Below, piece after piece: positions 1-6,100 of a stretch of 25,917 bases of DNA. Where the stretch lies: IMG/VR virus record IMGVR_UViG_3300030107_003571, positions 10,000 through 35,916 of that record, one strand, 5' to 3'. Position 1 is the first letter of the stretch; every line of letters begins with the position of its first letter. The notes below the pieces were generated by a model. It was not told where the DNA came from. It did not search any database and saw nothing but the letters and a program-made list of their open reading frames with translations. The stretch is from a virus. The position numbers and the translations under genes are program-made.

Positions 1-458
1 GAGTTAATACCTTCCTTCAAAGGAGGTAAATACTTATTCTGGAAGTCGGAAACTAGATCGTTCCATTCCTTTGTATGATCTTTGACCCGAAGGATGAAAT
101 CACTTTGGTAGCTAAGAGTATCAGTACCTAGAAAAGGTATTTTACGGACAGAAGTAGCAACCTTGTTACTTTGAGATCGAACTTTAGCTAGTTCTTCTTC
201 AAGAGAAGTGATCTCACGGGAATGTGTTTCCTTTAAAGTCTCTATTTGATTCATTTGATTTTCATTAAAACGACGTAAATCAGTAATAGTGAGGTTTAAA
301 GAATCACATTCTTCTTGACTACCGTTGTAATCATCTTGAAGTTCAATCTTTTCAAGATAGAAGCTCTTCTTGCTACCATTGCGATATTCCGCATTGGTTT
401 TAGGGTCTAGATCCACATCAAATTTCTTGATGAGACTTTCCTGTTGAGCTTTGTCCAT
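1..458 (-). CDS. Coiled-coil protein of unknown function (C-terminus outside window)
   Basis: The reading frame opens at an ATG on the minus strand (MDKAQQESLIKKFDVD...) and stays open for about 152 codons to the window edge, so the C-terminus is missing. The first 55 residues are charged. Residues about 55-105 are rich in Leu, Glu, Gln and Asn with heptad-like spacing, which suggests a coiled coil. The visible end is mixed alpha-helical in character. No catalytic motif, signal peptide or membrane segment is seen. The ATG follows a direct repeat of CTTGTTCT and has no clear ribosome binding site. It is the most downstream visible gene of the minus-strand small-gene cluster. Family not recognised. 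Confidence 0.7.
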   Translation of the reverse strand, partial: MDKAQQESLIKKFDVDLDPKTNAEYRNGSKKSFYLEKIELQDDYNGSQEECDSLNLTITDLRRFNENQMNQIETLKETHSREITSLEEELAKVRSQSNKVATSVRKIPFLGTDTLSYQSDFILRVKDHTKEWNDLVSDFQNKYLPPLKEGIN

Positions 459-481
459 AAGAACAAGTAGGTATAGAACAA

Positions 482-519
482 GCAGGGAGAACCCTGCAGG
501 GAACCTACGAATAGGCTCC
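482..519 (-). ncRNA. Paired hairpins between genes (element E, tRNA-like series without acceptor stem)
   Basis: Two adjacent hairpins lie between the stop at 529 and the next minus-strand gene. Read on the minus strand, the first pairs 512-519 with 500-507 around a TTCG tetraloop and contains one G-U wobble that would be a mismatch on the plus strand. The second is a perfect 6-bp stem, GCAGGG/CCCTGC (482-487 with 492-497), with a TTCT loop. The layout (tetraloop hairpin, then a G-rich stem with a TTC-containing loop) matches the better tRNA-like elements at 1605-2240. No acceptor-like closing stem is found. It could be a terminator or processing site, but no T-run follows. Confidence 0.4.
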
Positions 520-528
520 GTGAAGGGA

Positions 529-789
529 TCATTGATTACATGACTTTTCCTCGTAGTAAGATCTCATGGTTTCTTGTAGATCTTTGCAACCAGTCATACG
601 ACTGATTTCAAATTCTCTAGTTTCTACCATTTCGTCATAAGGAGAAAAAGTTGTAACTCTGTGATACTCCATGAGTAATGACCTATTGTGACTTGTACGG
701 TTAATAACCTGAGTAGGAGCACATTGAACCCAGTCATCAGATATTTCTGATTTGGGAGGCCAGAATTCAAGTTTGTGAGTAATAGCCAT
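529..789 (-). CDS. Small hypothetical protein, 86 aa
   Basis: An 86-residue open frame that starts ATG GCT ATT ACT and ends TAA. The protein is soluble-looking and acidic to neutral, with no membrane segment. It has a Trp/Pro-rich start (FWPPKSEISDDWVQ) and a Glu/Tyr/Lys-rich C-terminal helix. No family is recognised. The gene lies between two hairpin pairs (811-848 upstream, 482-519 downstream) in the same minus-strand chain of small genes, with about 70-nt spacers that are unusually long for this virus. No Shine-Dalgarno sequence is seen before the ATG. Confidence 0.6.
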   Translation of the reverse strand: MAITHKLEFWPPKSEISDDWVQCAPTQVINRTSHNRSLLMEYHRVTTFSPYDEMVETREFEISRMTGCKDLQETMRSYYEEKSCNQ

Positions 790-810
790 AATAAATAGGG
801 GCTAAAGGAC

Positions 811-848
811 AAGGGGATGAACCCCTCAGTCTGCCTCCGAAGAAGCAG
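811..848 (-). ncRNA. Paired hairpins between genes (element D, tRNA-like series without acceptor stem)
   Basis: On the minus strand, CTGCTTC (842-848) pairs with GAGGCAG (831-837) around a TTCG tetraloop. Three bases later a second stem pairs 822-827 with 811-816, with a loop that reads TTCAT. Each stem includes a pair that is G-U on the minus strand but C-A on the plus strand, so the structure fits RNA from the minus strand, the direction of the flanking genes. The order and spacing copy elements A to C. The second loop has 5 nt instead of the 7 of a T-loop, and no closing stem is found. Confidence 0.4.
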
Positions 849-864
849 AGGGAGAGGATCAAGA

Positions 865-1002
865 TTAAAACCAACGAAAGTATTTCGATGGATAAGGAAG
901 AAGTTTTAATAACCTCTTCCGTGATTCAATCTTGCGGTCAATCAAAGATCTATGATATTGATCTTTAACGTCAGACCATGTGCGATTACTTTCCATAGGC
1001 AT
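865..1002 (-). CDS. Very small basic protein, 45 aa
   Basis: An open frame of 45 codons (MPMESNRTWSDV...), rich in Arg, Lys and aromatic residues, with a hydrophobic/basic tail (LLKLLPYPSKYFRWF). A second in-frame ATG at 996 would give 43 residues. Either start overlaps the end of the upstream 26-residue gene in another frame, a typical phage arrangement for coupled translation. No family is recognised. Support comes from the tight packing within an unbroken chain of short minus-strand genes and from its amphipathic sequence. Too short for certainty. Confidence 0.45.
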   Translation of the reverse strand: MPMESNRTWSDVKDQYHRSLIDRKIESRKRLLKLLPYPSKYFRWF

Positions 1003-1066
1003 TAATATTCTTGAGGAATATATAAAGCAGGACGATCACACATATGAGAACAATTAACGAAGTCAT
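986..1066 (-). CDS. Micro-peptide with one membrane segment, 26 aa
   Basis: A 26-codon frame, MTSLIVLICVIVLLYIFLKN followed by a short polar end. Residues 3-18 are almost purely hydrophobic and are followed by Lys, the pattern of a single-pass membrane micro-protein. It starts 10 nt after the stop of the upstream gene and its end overlaps the next gene. At this length the frame could be chance. The strongly membrane-like composition and the exact fit between neighbours favour a real gene. Phage peptides of this kind can act on the host membrane, but no function can be assigned. Confidence 0.45.
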   Translation of the reverse strand: MTSLIVLICVIVLLYIFLKNINAYGK

Positions 1067-1076
1067 AGGTAATACC

Positions 1077-1256
1077 TCAATTAAGGAACAAAGTATAAAA
1101 AGGACGACCTGAGTCTCCTTCTATACGAAAGCAACCATTTCTATAGAAGTCCATCCATACATATAGATATACGAATGGAAGAAAAGGAAGAAATACATGA
1201 GATACTTCTAAATCTGGATGTCCGTCATATCTCTCAGAGAAAATAGATTTAAACAT
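1077..1256 (-). CDS. Small membrane-associated protein, 59 aa
   Basis: A 59-codon frame (MFKSIFSERYDGH...) that starts 2 nt after the stop of the preceding gene at 1259. Residues 21-35 (VFLPFLPFVYLYVWM) form a hydrophobic, aromatic-rich segment that could span or sit in a membrane. They are followed by a polar region with Arg/Gly residues. No family is recognised. The near-zero spacing to both neighbours argues for co-transcription and coupled translation. No Shine-Dalgarno sequence is visible, as for most genes in this cluster. Confidence 0.5.
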   Translation of the reverse strand: MFKSIFSERYDGHPDLEVSHVFLPFLPFVYLYVWMDFYRNGCFRIEGDSGRPFYTLFLN

Positions 1257-1258
1257 AA

Positions 1259-1402
1259 TCAGTTACTTGGGACGTATGAGAACCATGAGTCAGAGTAATG
1301 AATAGTGACGATACAAATGCCAAGACATAAAAGTCCAAATGGCAATGGATAGTCATCAATCATGTAGTCAATGTCAGCCAAGATACGTTTAATAGCTTTC
1401 AT
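1259..1402 (-). CDS. Single-pass membrane protein, 47 aa
   Basis: A 47-codon frame (MKAIKRILADIDYMIDDYP...) that begins 2 nt after the stop of the upstream gene. A basic/acidic amphipathic start of about 18 residues leads into a hydrophobic helix (residues 19-34, PLPFGLLCLGICIVTI), then a short aromatic/Ser tail. This fits a small single-span inner-membrane protein. The family is not recognised. It is one of four consecutive tiny genes with membrane-like segments (986-1572), so a shared job at the host envelope is possible but unproven. Confidence 0.5.
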   Translation of the reverse strand: MKAIKRILADIDYMIDDYPLPFGLLCLGICIVTIHYSDSWFSYVPSN

Positions 1403-1404
1403 GA

Positions 1405-1572
1405 TTAAGAATGAAGATCCTCATAAACAACTCTTTCTAGAGATTTGCCACAGACATTCATCATTGCCTTACTAGTGTGTGCCTGTAAAGCATTGGAATA
1501 TCTTTGGTATGCAATACGCTTACCAATGAAGTATCCAAATACTGGGGCAGTAAAGAGAATTAAAATAGGCAT
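1405..1572 (-). CDS. Small N-terminally hydrophobic protein, 55 aa
   Basis: A 55-codon frame that starts MPILILFTAPVFGYFIGKR, an N-terminal hydrophobic helix followed by basic residues, then a polar helical part (QRYSNALQAHTSKAMMN...). It resembles a small membrane-anchored protein with a cytoplasmic tail. The ATG comes one base after the motif CTTCGAC, which also lies just before the starts at 2154 and 2415. It is the first gene downstream of tRNA-like element A. Family unknown. Confidence 0.55.
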   Translation of the reverse strand: MPILILFTAPVFGYFIGKRIAYQRYSNALQAHTSKAMMNVCGKSLERVVYEDLHS

Positions 1573-1584
1573 AGTCGAAGTTAA

Positions 1585-1655
1585 CTACTCTCAGTGAGTA
1601 GCAATACCGAGTGAGGGAGTTGAACCCTCCTAGTCTTTCGACTAGCCCTCTCGGT
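1585..1655 (-). ncRNA. tRNA-like structured RNA element A with 3' hairpin
   Basis: Read on the minus strand: an acceptor-like strand ACCGAGA (1649-1655) pairs over 6 bp with ACTCGGT (1606-1612). Inside lie a hairpin CTAGTC-GAAA-GACTAG (1630-1645) and a T-arm, GAGGG-TTCAACT-CCCTC (1613-1629), with a canonical 7-nt T-loop. A discriminator-like A (1605) and ATTGC follow, then a second hairpin CTACTC-ACTGA-GAGTAG (1585-1601). There is no D-arm, and the 51-nt core is far shorter than a tRNA. It starts 13 nt after the stop of the gene at 1669-1875 and ends 12 nt before the next start. Alternative: a decayed tRNA gene. Shared layout with B and C favours a maintained RNA structure. Confidence 0.55.
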
Positions 1656-1668
1656 TATTAAGAGTTAG

Positions 1669-1875
1669 TCATAACCTTGCCTCCTGGCGTTCGATTAATT
1701 CAACAACTTCTTCATAATGTTCACGAGCTTGAGCAAGTGAAATAGAAGTACATTGAGGATAATCACGAGCACCTTTAAGAGGTTCAAAGGTTACACGGGC
1801 TTGATTACTAGCTTCGTTAATGGAATAAACGTAGCAAGCAACTTTTGGGTGTACCAAAGTAAACTCTCTGATCAT
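1669..1875 (-). CDS. Small hypothetical protein, 68 aa
   Basis: A 68-codon frame (MIREFTLVHPKVACYVYSIN...). The ATG is preceded by GGAG about 8 nt upstream, one of the few clear Shine-Dalgarno sites in the minus-strand cluster. The protein looks like a small soluble alpha/beta domain: alternating hydrophobic N-terminal strands, then a helical Glu/Arg-rich C-terminal half (AQAREHYEEVVELIERQEAR). No family is recognised. Structured elements B and A flank it upstream and downstream. Confidence 0.65.
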   Translation of the reverse strand: MIREFTLVHPKVACYVYSINEASNQARVTFEPLKGARDYPQCTSISLAQAREHYEEVVELIERQEARL

Positions 1876-1896
1876 GGGATAACTCCATGTGTGCAG

Positions 1897-1972
1897 TGCC
1901 TATCTCTGCTGTAGGCAATACCGAGGGAGGGAGTTGAACCCTCCATTACAGCTAACGCTGACCAAGCTCAGT
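1897..1972 (-). ncRNA. tRNA-like structured RNA element B with 3' hairpin
   Basis: On the minus strand, ACTGAGC (1966-1972) pairs over 6 bp, including one G-U, with CCTCGGT (1920-1926). The interior holds a hairpin CAGC-GTTA-GCTG (1949-1960) and a T-arm GAGGG-TTCAACT-CCCTC (1927-1943), extendable to 6 bp. An A (1919) and TTGCC follow, leading into a hairpin TGCCTA/TAGGCA (1897-1902 with 1912-1917). No D-arm is present and the core is 54 nt. The first element base coincides with the last base of the upstream TAA stop. The T-arm is identical to element A, but the acceptor and central stems differ and still pair, as expected of a conserved fold. Confidence 0.55.
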
Positions 1973-2154
1973 TATTTAGTTGGGTATCCATAAGAGATAC
2001 AGAAGTCCATCATGTTTGCATGCTTATCCTGAGGCCAGTCATGGGTACGGCATTGAGTTGCAGTAGCAACATCAAGACGTGCTACAAACATTTGAGCAGC
2101 ACCTGCATAAAGGCCAAGAATGACAGCAGTAATGACGAGACGTTTAATAGACAT
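1972..2154 (-). CDS. Small exported or membrane-anchored protein, 60 aa
   Basis: The frame could start at 2172 (MACFDIM...) but I choose the inner ATG at 2154 (MSIKRLVITAVILGLYAGAA). That start gives a classic basic-plus-hydrophobic N-terminus, follows the CTTCGAC motif seen before two neighbouring genes, and frees the hairpin at 2168-2186, which would otherwise include the outer ATG. Residues 6-22 form a membrane anchor or signal peptide. The rest is polar with two Cys (CRTHDWPQ... and FCISYGYPTK). Family unknown. Its stop codon touches element B. Confidence 0.6.
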   Translation of the reverse strand: MSIKRLVITAVILGLYAGAAQMFVARLDVATATQCRTHDWPQDKHANMMDFCISYGYPTK

Positions 2155-2167
2155 GATGTCGAAGCAA

Positions 2168-2240
2168 GCCATCCTCAGTGGACGGCAATGACAAGTGGGG
2201 GAGTTGCACCCCCGACCTGGCTATGATCCAGTAACTTGCC
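2168..2240 (-). ncRNA. tRNA-like structured RNA element C, most tRNA-like copy
   Basis: On the minus strand, GGCAAGT (2234-2240) pairs over all 7 positions, with one G-U, to ACTTGTC (2190-2196). After two bases comes an anticodon-like arm, CTGG-ATCATAG-CCAG (2217-2231), whose 7-nt loop reads A-U-CAU-A-G. A 3-nt spacer and a 5-bp T-arm GGGGG-TGCAACT-CCCCC (2197-2213) follow. A discriminator A (2189), TTGCC and a hairpin GCCGTCC-ACTGA-GGATGGC (2168-2186) complete it. Only the D-arm is missing. The element overlaps the last 20 nt of the upstream gene, and its TAG stop sits in the anticodon-like loop. Confidence 0.6.
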
Positions 2241-2415
2241 TATGAGACTCAAGGAAGTCTCCTGTAATACGTGGTCTTCCCATATCTTGGATGCGAGCAG
2301 ATCCTTTACGGTAAACAGTCTTAACAGCTGCTTTAGCACTTGGGATCAGTGTCTCTTTCTCCAAAGAATCAGTGAAAGAACGTAATAGACTTACAGATTT
2401 AGTACGAAATGACAT
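2221..2415 (-). CDS. Small basic protein, 64 aa, first gene of the minus-strand cluster
   Basis: A 64-codon frame (MSFRTKSVSLLRSFTDSLEK...), Arg/Lys/Ser-rich, with no membrane segment and a predicted net positive charge, compatible with nucleic-acid or protein binding. No family is recognised. The CTTCGAC motif lies 9 nt before its ATG. A 7-bp inverted repeat overlapping that motif (2429-2435 with 2453-2459) could form a leader hairpin. The 3' end is dual-use: the final codons and stop form the 5' half of tRNA-like element C. Confidence 0.55.
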   Translation of the reverse strand: MSFRTKSVSLLRSFTDSLEKETLIPSAKAAVKTVYRKGSARIQDMGRPRITGDFLESHRQVTGS

Positions 2416-2458
2416 GAGTAATGTGTCGAAGTAAGGTGTACGATTGCCTGGGCTTACC

Positions 2459-2583
2459 TGCGGAAAACCACAGTGCCAAGATAAATACAGTTCTACACCG
2501 CAGTTATCAGGCCAGGATTCTCTCCCTAAATTCGGGCACGATTGGGGAAAAACCGTGTAAATTTGGGGAAAACCTGTGGAAAA
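2459..2583. other. Candidate replication origin: four DnaA-box-like sites
   Basis: Four sites of the form TTTTCCNCA lie in the same orientation on the minus strand: TTTTCCGCA (2459-2467), TTTTCCCCA (2543-2551), TTTTCCCCA (2564-2572) and TTTTCCACA (2575-2583). TTTTCCACA is the DnaA box reported for cyanobacterial oriC; the other three differ at one position. The last three are clustered with 21- and 11-nt spacing. The region lies at the strand switch between the minus-strand cluster and the plus-strand operon, and is followed by a polypyrimidine tract and AT-rich DNA that could unwind. Origin function is inferred. Confidence 0.4.
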
Positions 2584-2603
2584 CTCGATGTAAAGCTGTC
2601 GTC

Positions 2604-2674
2604 AGGCAACTTAGCGAGGAGCGAAGCGACGAGCGGTACCTCATCGGTGTCACTCGGTAATGTCGAAGGACATT
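2604..2674. other. GC-rich patch with repeats and a small hairpin
   Basis: This short stretch is clearly richer in G and C than its surroundings. It has a purine-rich repeat around 2612-2632 (GAGGAGCGAAGCGACGAGCG, including the stable mini-hairpin GCGAAGC), three spaced CGGT words, and a perfect 6-bp hairpin AATGTC-GAAG-GACATT (2659-2674). That hairpin contains another copy of CTTCGAC on the minus strand (2662-2668). No convincing coding frame fits. It may belong to the candidate origin or to a promoter region for the minus-strand cluster. Confidence 0.3.
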
Positions 2675-2691
2675 CACTTGATCCTTCAATG

Positions 2692-2739
2692 CCTTCCTTT
2701 TTTTTTTCTTTCCAGTATCGCAATCGGGTGGGTGGTGGG
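2692..2739. other. Polypyrimidine tract and G-rich run
   Basis: Positions 2692-2713 are 22 consecutive pyrimidines centred on ten T, close to mirror-symmetric, a form that can adopt triplex (H-DNA) structure. Thirteen bases later, GGGTGGGTGGTGGG (2726-2739) could form a two-layer G-quadruplex. Neither is a plain Rho-independent terminator, because no strong stem directly precedes the T-run. Their position beside the DnaA-like sites suggests a role in origin melting or transcription pausing. That role is inferred. Confidence 0.3.
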
Positions 2740-2754
2740 AGACTAGTCAGATAA

Positions 2755-2868
2755 TTTTGTTCCCTATTTGGGCTATACACGGCCCCTTCTTTTGAACAAA
2801 AAGTCTAATTTTGTACTAAAAATCCCTAATTAGCCCAAGAATGCAGCCAAAATCCTTTTTTGTACAAA
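2755..2868. promoter_or_regulatory. Cluster of TTTTGWWC near-palindromes, possible operators
   Basis: Four related words occur within 115 nt: TTTTGTTCC (2755-2763), TTTTGAACAAAA (2790-2801, an inverted repeat), TTTTGTACTAAA (2809-2820) and the perfect palindrome TTTGTACAAA (2859-2868). Two CCCTA-TT-GGGC / CCCTAATTAGCCC blocks lie between them. The whole stretch 2740-2890 has no convincing gene. Repeated dyads next to a strand switch commonly serve as repressor or initiator binding sites, but no binding protein is identified here. Confidence 0.3.
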
Positions 2869-2890
2869 TTAAATTATTAACAATTACTAA

Positions 2891-3100
2891 TTATTTTTTG
2901 CTTTCTTTATATTTAAGCGTTGCTTTTACTGCTTTTTTAAATGAATCTTCATCTGGAAGTTCAAATGCTAATTCTTTTCTAGCTGATGTTACAAAATTAC
3001 GTACATCACCAGCGGTATCGCCTTGAGCAGCCATTGCTAAAGCTTTATCTTTAATAGCTTCTAGCCCTTCAACTCGTTTTTGACGTTTTCCAGCGTCCAT
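2891..3100 (-). CDS. Small hypothetical protein, 69 aa
   Basis: A 69-codon frame (MDAGKRQKRVEGLEAIKDKA...), mostly alpha-helical and rich in Lys, Ala and Glu, with no membrane segment. The helical, highly charged composition and the C-terminal KKAVKATLKYKESKK suggest a small DNA- or protein-binding factor. No family is recognised. It stands alone on the minus strand between the operator-like repeats and the start of the plus-strand structural operon, a typical position for a regulator or origin-related protein. That role is only inferred. Its codon use matches the right-hand operon more than the minus-strand cluster. Confidence 0.65.
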   Translation of the reverse strand: MDAGKRQKRVEGLEAIKDKALAMAAQGDTAGDVRNFVTSARKELAFELPDEDSFKKAVKATLKYKESKK

Positions 3101-3199
3101 TCCGCTTAATTCACGTTATTTACTAATAATAATCGAAGTATTTCTTAGATTTATCAAGAATAGAATGATTAGAAGGAAATAATTAAAGAATAAGCTGAT

Positions 3200-6100
3200 A
3201 TGGCTGTCGCTGCTGCTGATTTTTACACATATGCTAGAGCCACTGGCACACCATTACCTCAGAACAAAAAAGAAGAGGCTGAATTAGTACCTGCTATTAA
3301 TCAATGGAAGAGAAATCAACTTAGACAGCAAAGACAAGAAGAAAATAATATTAATGGTGGTGCAATTGCTGCTGTTGCAGGTTTAGCAGGTCTTGGTGCT
3401 GCTGCATTAGCTGCTAGTAGAGGTGGATTAAGAACTAGAGTTACAAATGCAGTAGATCCTACTTCTGGATCTAGAATTTCGACAGGTGTTGGTGGATTAC
3501 AACAAGATTTAAATGAAAAAGTAACACAAAGTCGAGATTGGGATGATTATAGAGATTCAATTACACTTAAAACACAAGTAGATGAAAGAGATTTTGTAAA
3601 TGAAGCATTAGATAAAGTTGAAAGAGATGCAATACGTCAATCTTCGATTGGTGAATACACTCCACAAGAATTAGCTGCTTTAGAAGCAGAAATAAGTCCT
3701 AGAAGATTGAGTGAGAAAAGAACACGAGAAAGAATAAGAGAAGGAGGAGAACAAGTTAGACAAAGAATTGTAAAAGGTTTGGAATTACCAGAACCTTCTT
3801 GGGAGCAAACAGATGTAGTACAGAGTAGAGAACCAAAGGTTACTGCTGTATCTCCTAAACAAGTTTTAGCTTTACCTCCTGCAAAAGTACAACAAGAAAT
3901 TAAAGATCCTTGGGACATACCAGCTGTAACTAATAATGATGTTAATAGTCCTATTACTACTAATGATTTTTTACAAAAAGAAGGTCCTGGAAAATATATT
4001 GATCCTGAAAAAGTAACTAATAATTCTGTTGCTAATGTTCCTAAATCTACGACAACTGAAGATCAAACAATTAGTGCTATTAATTCAGCAGAGGATCAAG
4101 ATACTGGAAGAATATATAATGAAATTGTTACAGATCCCAATGTAGATACAAGTAATCTTGATGATGTTAATTTACAAAATATTTCAGAAAACCTTCCTCC
4201 ACCACAACAGGAACAAAGAGTTGGTGTTTCTAAAGAACAAGATTTTGTAGAACAAGCATTAGATCAAAAACTTTATAACAGGCTTCGCTTTCAGTCAGAA
4301 GAATTAAATCGAGACGAATTAAAAGCATTAGAAGGTATTGGTTGGGAATTAAAAAAATCACGTAAAGCAGCACAACCTAAACCTTGGGAAAATAAAGATT
4401 TTAATGCAGATAGAATTGCAAATACTCCTCCTATAAAAACGGGTAATGCTATTGTTGATAGTTTAATTGGTCGTCTTCCTACTGCAGTTGTTGCAGCTGA
4501 CGAAATTGCAAGACAAGGTGTTAAGGATGTTACAGATGCAGCTAGAAGTATTAAGAAAGCTGTTGTAGAAAACGCACCATCTAATCTTCCTGATTTCTCA
4601 AGAGTTCCTCCCTCTGGAACAAATACAAGTGCTACTGTTCAACTATCAGATGGAAGTACTGCTGGACCTTTATATCCTTTTAAACAAGCTTGGAGAGGAT
4701 TAACTGGAGGTACAAGTGTAGATGCAGTAGAGGAAAGTGTAGATGCAGCAATAGCTAAGGGAAAAGTTATTGATTCAGATGTTGAAGGTGTAGATAAAAC
4801 ATATGTTCTTAACGAACGAGACCAGATCATTCATGAGATAGGAGCTAAGTCTGATCTTCCTATAAATACTCCTAAAGATGTAACAGATTTATCACAAACA
4901 CAACTATCTCGTCTTTTACAAAGACAAAGATATGAAATAGCTTCTCAATTACGTCAAAAAGGTGAACCTATTACCCCTGGAAAAATTGAAAGGGAATTAG
5001 AAAAATTTTACGGACCGAAATCTTATGACTATGTACGTAAGCTTAATGAAGAGTTAAAGCAAAAAGGTTTGCCAACAAAAAATATAAGGAACATTACAAA
5101 AAGAAAACATGCTATGCAACTAGGAGCTACTTATGATCCTGACTTTTTTGATAATGTAAATCTTAAGAGTGTTCAAATTGCTGGAGAAAATATACCTGTT
5201 ATACCATCAAGAAGATTTACAGAAGCAAAGACTCCTTATACAGGTAAGGCATATTTGGATGATTATAGTGACAGTTTAAAGACTCCTTTCTTTTCAGAAG
5301 ACACAGCTTTACGTTTAAAAGAACAAGTAGATGACAAGAAGAATTGGGTATCAGTTCGAAGGGCAGAAGTAGAAAGTGATATAGCTGAAATTTATAAAGA
5401 AAGAAAAATTAAAGCTGAACAAGAAGGGAAAAAAGTTGCTGCACAATTAAAGATAGCTGAATCAAAAGGTCAAATAGGACTTGTAAAGAAACTTTCAAAT
5501 CAATTAGAAAATATAAGAAAAGTATGGAAAAATCCTTCTTTAGGTTATTATCGTCAAGGTGATATTAGATTAGCTGAAGGACGATTAAGAGGACTAGCAA
5601 GAAAAGAAATAGAGATGCAAGGAGAAATTGCAGATTTAAAGGTACCTTTGAGGCTTAGTGAACAGCCAGAGAATGCAGGTAAACGTGTTTATTTTGAAAC
5701 GGATACAACAGGAGGAAGAGGTCAGAAGATTGGCAAACAATTACCTGATGTGGATTTAGCAGATGAAGTTGTAGATGACATAGATAGAATCAGAACTCCT
5801 ATGATTGATCCTGAAAGTGTTGAATTACGTTCTGAATATAGGATTAAAGATACAGAACTAAAAGGTAGTGGTGGAAGAAAGCAAGCTGAAGCTCTTTCTC
5901 CACGACCTGATAATACTTTAGATACACTTGTTCCTTTACAACAAAGAGGAACAGGTGAGGGATTACTAGATAGTAGAAGATTAAATCGACAGACTACAAG
6001 ACCTGTTGTTGATGCTATTGAACCAGATAGAGCAGGAAGTGATCCTGGAGGATTAGAAGAATCTCCTAGAATTTTCGAAGATGAACAAGGTGGCGTTACC

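Follow-up and report, generated by a model that had tools for sequence, protein, structure and literature searches.

The window analysed here is a stretch of 25,917 nucleotides, and it belongs to a virus record of 36,340 bases (IMGVR_UViG_3300030107_003571) whose terminase is 81% identical to that of the freshwater cyanophage Synechococcus phage S-EIV1. Small genes lie on the minus strand near its left end, and three structured elements, designated A, B and C, are located at their borders. In the direction of the genes, the features are as follows, where P1 is the closing stem and P2 the inner hairpin:

2221-2415, minus strand: small ORF of 64 aa upstream of C, with its stop TAG inside the loop of the C inner hairpin
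2190-2240, minus strand: C core, P1 GGCAAGT/ACTTGTC, 7+5 = 12 bp with the T-stem
2217-2231, minus strand: C inner hairpin CTGG-ATCATAG-CCAG, with a 7-nt loop
2197-2213, minus strand: C T-arm GGGGG-TGCAACT-CCCCC
2168-2189, minus strand: C tail, made of A, TT and the hairpin GCCGTCC-ACTGA-GGATGGC (2168-2186)
1972-2172, minus strand: small ORF of 66 aa between C and B, of the family ...ATxQCxTHxWP.., with homologues in L004 and S-EIV1
1920-1972, minus strand: B core, P1 ACTGAG/CTCGGT, 6+6 = 12 bp with the T-stem
1961-1966, minus strand: B D-loop-like CTTGGT
1949-1960, minus strand: B P2 hairpin CAGC-GTTA-GCTG
1926-1944, minus strand: B T-arm GGAGGG-TTCAACT-CCCTCC
1893-1919, minus strand: B tail, made of A, TT and an H-type pseudoknot
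1893-1916, minus strand: pseudoknot of the B tail, GCCTA..TAGGC, with loop GCAG pairing with CTGC; the pairs covary in relatives
1873-1889, minus strand: hairpin CATGG..CCATG, holding GGAG (Shine-Dalgarno-like) and the ATG of the gene at 1669-1875
1669-1875, minus strand: small ORF of 68 aa between B and A; the same gene follows the equivalent element in L004
1606-1655, minus strand: A core, P1 ACCGAG/CTCGGT (1650-1655 with 1606-1611)
1646-1649, minus strand: A linker AGGG
1630-1645, minus strand: A P2 hairpin CTAGTC-GAAA-GACTAG
1613-1629, minus strand: A T-arm GAGGG-TTCAACT-CCCTC
1605, minus strand: A residue occupying the tRNA discriminator place
1585-1605, minus strand: A tail, made of A, TT, GC and the hairpin CTACTC-ACTGA-GAGTAG (1585-1601)
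1405-1572, minus strand: small ORF of 55 aa after A

The initial annotation, made from the sequence alone, had placed three tRNA-like elements at these positions on the minus strand. A structural descriptor (a T-stem of at least 5 pairs with a T-loop, plus a closing stem, 11-14 bp in total) finds exactly these three on the minus strand of the region and none on the plus strand, against a mean of 0.05 matches per strand and a maximum of 1 in 200 dinucleotide shuffles. RNAfold reproduces the closing stem (6, 6 and 7 bp in A, B and C, respectively), the inner hairpin and the T-arm that had been drawn for each, and the loops TTCAACT and TGCAACT are present as described, as is the discriminator-like A followed by TT(GC) after each core. 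No CCA is encoded at the element end; the acceptor stem is followed by NUU. Acceptor and T-stem together measure 12 bp in B and in C, and 11 bp plus a bulge in A. The wobble pairs, U-G in B and G-U in C when both are read on the minus strand, agree with the earlier remark that they occur only on that RNA. The annotation had missed three features: a second structure directly after each element (a hairpin with an ACTGA loop after A and after C, an H-type pseudoknot after B), the D-loop-like GG stretches of A and B, and the stop codons that overlap B and C.

The description of the elements as D-armless is half right. ARAGORN finds no tRNA or tmRNA in the window, L002, L004 or S-EIV1, and in the absence of any such prediction the elements were rejected as ordinary tRNAs or tmRNAs. 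Many copies in the wider family, however, retain a D-loop-like strand (UGGUG) that accompanies the canonical TTC T-loop, and a D-loop-like GG stretch lies between the acceptor and the inner hairpin in A (AGGG) and in B (CUUGGU).

The position of the upstream stop codon varies among the three: it lies 14 nt upstream of A, in the P2 loop of C, and overlaps B, with which the TAA of the ORF at 1972-2172 shares its final base. Hairpins similar to that at 1873-1889 are present in relatives. In the close relative L004, this place holds four elements, and some of the genes between them are different. L267 and L268, two other close relatives (terminase 95-96% identical), have five or six consecutive elements.

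Further features were observed in the surroundings. Ten N at 9990-9999 of L002, just before the window, mark an assembly gap at its left edge. At 2540-2590 (minus strand) are TTTTCCACAGGTTTTCCCC repeats shared with L004 and L062; they resemble DnaA-box clusters and lie near a coding-strand switch, a possible replication origin. Gene borders at 486-520 and 806-850 of the window and at 9875-9970 of L002 (all minus strand) carry a tandem pair of hairpins, of which the second resembles a T-arm in its loop (GGGTTCTCCC, GGGGTTCATCCCC); these are a second type of intergenic RNA element.

Extent, covariation and fold of the family

An exact pattern built on A, B and C matched only L004 among the viral contigs, and the pattern was therefore rebuilt from S-EIV1-type copies. 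The resulting DNA pattern has at least 120 matches in viral contigs; in 84,980 prokaryote genomes it gives only two chance matches, neither with the structure of the element. A search of a phage collection with window positions 1-3200 as DNA returned no match. In addition, 6 of 14 long contigs picked by their terminase alone contain a match to the model. The family includes S-EIV1 (two copies) and its relatives, as well as the T7-like cyanophages P-SSP7, P-SSP3, S-RIP1, S-TIP37 and S-SBP1, the T7-like phages having been reached through a variant pattern. Related viruses with the same folds number more than a hundred, and the folds are almost always located where two genes meet. It should be noted that R1, the model of the main subtype (144 copies parsed), fails to recover A, B and C; the tie between them rests on common layout, tails, synteny and the L267/L268 intermediates, which bridge the gap. 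The elements in L105 (minus strand), L119, L132 and L218 look like chance matches to the descriptor and were excluded.

Lack of covariation among homologues had been named as an outcome that would refute the tRNA-like fold, and the relatives give the opposite result. An alignment of 37 diverse sequences has 97.8% paired cells and a covariation score of 0.661, vs. 0.174 for shuffled sequences, and RNAalifold arrives at the same fold unaided. Across 88 distinct class I copies, the T-stem (P3) is 100% paired with up to four pair types per position; four pairs of P1 are likewise 100% paired and the fifth 83%, and beyond it pairing falls to the expectation from base composition. G-U is common in the stem cells of these copies and A-C almost absent, which means that the RNA of the coding strand is under selection; in the main subtype, G-U wobbles occur on the coding strand only. 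In tRNA, the acceptor and T-stem add up to 12 bp. The sum of P1 and P3 is 12 bp in 93 of the 144 main-subtype copies and 11-13 bp in all but three (141/144).

The P2 hairpin is invariant in the 37-sequence set because the search pattern fixed it. Among variants, its stem covaries (TCCG/CGGG, TTCG/CGAG, TCAG/CTGA) and the loop UNNAAG is kept. The main-subtype form, UCCG-UNNAAG-CGG, has no counterpart in tRNA, which suggests a further partner.

A T-loop of TGCAANC type is present in all 144 main-subtype copies, a feature partly fixed by the pattern. The linker between acceptor and T-arm differs with the T-loop: it nearly always contains GG, often as UGGUG like a tRNA D-loop, in TTC copies, and is usually an UNNAAG hairpin in TGC copies. 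Among copies not chosen by patterns, TTC occurs 9 times with GG and once with UNNAAG, and TGC 27 times with UNNAAG and 9 times with GG, although several of the latter nine are chance matches. A and B are of the TTC+GG kind and C is of the TGC kind. From these sequences we infer that the GG strand and the T-loop may form an elbow. The shortest form consists of a 5-bp acceptor, the strand AUGGUGUA and a 7-bp T-arm.

No Rfam 15 family, C4 included, matches the elements at the gathering score; permissive scans give weak matches confined to the T-arm, among them a similarity to tmRNA. As tRNA genes the elements have the required 12 bp of acceptor and T-stem with a T-loop, but lack a recognisable cloverleaf with D-arm and anticodon arm. 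They are tRNA-like by fold and not tRNA by membership. We found no earlier description of them in the literature searched, which left out most subscription journals. The elements constitute a widespread cyanophage RNA family that is absent from Rfam.

Gene borders, tails and the capsid-leader slot

Most copies lie between two genes on the same strand. The element, which usually encloses the stop codon of the upstream gene, is followed in turn by NUU, by a hairpin or covarying pseudoknot as the tail and, a short distance past the tail, by the next start codon. Of the 131 copies with an upstream ORF, 90 have the stop codon of that ORF at the P1/P2 junction. The UU after the discriminator position is invariant in the alignment (37/37). 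The tail is a hairpin in some copies and, in others, a pseudoknot with covarying loop pairs (GCGG/CCGC, GCAGG/CCTGC, GTGG/CCAC, AGGG/CCCT), and it often runs into a small hairpin containing GGAG and the start codon. The genes on either side are shuffled: one upstream gene is combined with up to six different downstream genes, and the core tends to travel with the upstream gene and the tail with the downstream gene. Sigma-70-type consensus promoters do not occur above chance near the elements in the window region or L267, and no U tract was found after the cores; on these grounds a promoter/terminator cassette was rejected.

Other structured RNAs occur near such borders. In L094, a tRNA-like element is closely preceded by a Glutamine-II riboswitch (Rfam RF01704) at 243-301. 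Additional structured elements between genes of S-EIV1 contain CCTGGGC..GTAAGTCCCAGG (L087 40740-40800 and 41430-41520, minus strand). Similar GTAAGTCCAAG elements in L109 and L123 precede tRNA-Leu; these are two different tRNA-Leu genes (L109 2571-2657, minus strand; L123 8178-8253, plus strand) at apparently the same gene border, each about 20 nt before the start codon and after the same structured element.

Seven T7-like cyanophage records (P-SSP7, P-SSP3, P-GSP1, S-TIP37, S-SBP1, S-RIP1 and MedDCM S45-C4) have the element before the leader of the major capsid gene. In NATL1A-7 this slot is taken by a complete tRNA-Gly, which is annotated as such and also predicted by ARAGORN; the TTGGC leader that follows it is the one seen in the element-bearing phages. 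If this tRNA is excised by RNase P and RNase Z, the capsid message would begin at the leader. The simplest reading, by analogy, would be that the tRNA-like element does the same job. A different hairpin, not obviously tRNA-like, occupies the slot in nine further T7-like records (L249-L255, L257 and L258; e.g. L250:243-257). Its 15-nt loop, CACCTCAGAGTCGGA, is invariant, and its stem is variable but mostly paired; it is an RNA motif of unknown kind, found in this slot in place of the tRNA-like element.

Proposed processing by host tRNA enzymes, competing readings and known systems

The initial annotation had offered processing sites or mRNA punctuation as a possible role. Covariation, coding strand, the 12-bp measure, the copies at gene junctions and the tRNA in the capsid slot all support this reading, in which the elements mimic tRNA and are cut by host tRNA-maturation enzymes; with cleavage inferred and no transcript-end data, we consider it about evenly poised between right and wrong. 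According to a review (PMC11143913), RNase P reads the T-loop, gauges the conserved 12-bp distance between it and the tRNA 5′ end, and cleaves acceptor/T-arm minihelices efficiently. The elbow is recognised by both RNase Z and RNase P (PMC4810234). RNase Z cuts after the discriminator, and a C following it suppresses cleavage (PMC7479834); the elements meet this requirement with UU in 37/37. They also have the tRNA-length acceptor/T-arm helix with an elbow element expected of substrates of both enzymes, the elbow being judged from sequence only. Cyanobacteria possess both enzymes (PMC10989914).

The proposed mechanism would run as follows. The element mimics the upper half of tRNA, with an approximately 12-bp acceptor/T-arm helix, a T-loop and, in many cases, a GG strand resembling a D-loop. 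It lies where neighbouring same-strand genes meet, at the stop codon or across it. In the phage polycistronic transcript, itself an inference of co-transcription, it would fold and be bound by the host tRNA-maturation machinery. RNase Z would read the elbow and cut between N73 and the invariant UU, and RNase P may act on the 5′ side too. The cut would leave the upstream message capped at its 3′ end by a compact tRNA-like fold that carries its stop codon. The tail hairpin or pseudoknot would come first in the downstream message and shield the 5′ end; this stabilising effect is also inferred. As to the enzyme, whose identity is again an inference, we favour RNase Z since a cut by RNase P would strip the stop codon from many upstream genes. 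That loss, which would affect most S-EIV1-type copies, counts against 5′-side cleavage, and the reading in general is weakened by the nine T7-like records with a slot hairpin that is not obviously tRNA-like, by the P2 hairpin of the main subtype and by the failure of R1 to recover A, B and C.

The strongest competitor involves no cleavage: the fold and tail would bridge the stop and start codons and promote or regulate termination, re-initiation or initiation of translation. The stop codon within P1 in about two thirds of S-EIV1-type copies, the start soon after the tail, and the GGAG/start-codon hairpins that the tails often reach are all in keeping with such a role. The position of the stop codon is variable, however, as A and C illustrate, and a translation element has no need of the 12-bp acceptor/T measure or the N-UU linker; the full tRNA gene in the NATL1A-7 slot would also be hard to explain. 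We regard it as unlikely, though a real possibility. It is less likely still that the elements are recombination joints, i.e. conserved border sequences that allow small genes to be swapped by homologous recombination in the way known from the PeSL cassettes of T4-type phages, with the fold serving something else or nothing. The up to six different downstream partners of one upstream gene, the tendency of core and tail to follow their respective genes, and the different genes carried by L004 and the window between the same elements fit a joint, but what selection preserves is the pairing: the stems change freely in sequence while remaining paired, with G-U frequent and A-C rare, and sequence homology would need the opposite. 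Gene shuffling is probably a consequence.

An intrinsic terminator, attenuator or mobile promoter-terminator cassette would account for GC-rich hairpins at gene borders, but we consider it very improbable, as no U tract follows the cores and promoters are not above chance in the window region or in L267, and a terminator would not require a T-loop and three-way junction. Finally, decaying or miniature tRNA genes without a function of their own are hardly tenable: despite the tRNA-like T-arm and acceptor, the CAT at the anticodon place of the 7-nt inner loop of C, and the tRNA-Gly of NATL1A-7, the more than 100 distinct copies have strict covariation, an invariant linker and linked tail structures, ARAGORN is negative in the window and S-EIV1, and random tRNA decay, the alternative that the initial annotation had set against its own proposal, is excluded by strong covariation and recurrence by the hundred at gene junctions. 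A common ancestry of elements and tRNAs is possible.

Returning to processing by tRNA enzymes, host RNase E rises on infection by P-SSP7 (PMC10989914). We tentatively propose, with rather less assurance than for punctuation itself, that the elements are an undescribed, widespread class of half-tRNAs: a cut by RNase Z, and perhaps RNase P, would leave a stop-bearing 3′ cap and a structured 5′ end, messages would be protected while RNase E degrades host RNA, and the borders would serve as joints for gene exchange. The family recurs, strongly covarying, in marine and freshwater cyanophages that are among the best studied, the P-SSP7 capsid-gene leader being one such site. Because nature has exchanged the element for a real tRNA, laboratory phage-host pairs offer a direct test of the processing hypothesis. 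If true, that hypothesis would carry tRNA punctuation beyond organelles to the mRNAs of phages, and would account for the way in which these phages keep their messages apart and protected at a time when host RNase E is raised.

Among known systems, tRNA punctuation in mitochondria and phage tRNA clusters likewise relies on coding-strand units of tRNA shape where genes meet; the elements differ in lacking most of the lower half of tRNA, in their linked 3′ hairpin or pseudoknot and in often carrying the upstream stop, and their cleavage has not been shown. Phage RNase P substrates (C4 antisense RNA, M3 RNA) and the AT1 minihelix share the short acceptor/T-arm mimic and the 12-bp measure, but C4 is an antisense regulator, whereas the elements are repeated and intercistronic. 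The tRNA-like domain of tmRNA also combines acceptor and T-arm with a reduced D-arm, and the weak Rfam similarity is to the T-arm only. The elements have no tag reading frame and sit at gene borders, and with the ARAGORN tmRNA search negative they do not qualify as tmRNA (tRNA-like domain plus tag reading frame). Structured RNAs also precede cyanophage genes in the case of the cis-regulatory manA, wcaG and PhotoRC-II; the elements, which have no Rfam match, reach from one gene's stop codon into the leader of its downstream neighbour. The PeSL cassettes found in T4-type phages, as far as PMC4503421 and general knowledge describe them, are likewise structured units repeated between genes, with small genes reshuffled around them. 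The present elements meet the requirement of modular gene shuffling and not that of an early promoter beside a terminator stem-loop (sigma-70-type consensus only); on that basis, they differ from PeSLs in showing no promoter or terminator and in having a tRNA-like fold selected at the RNA level.
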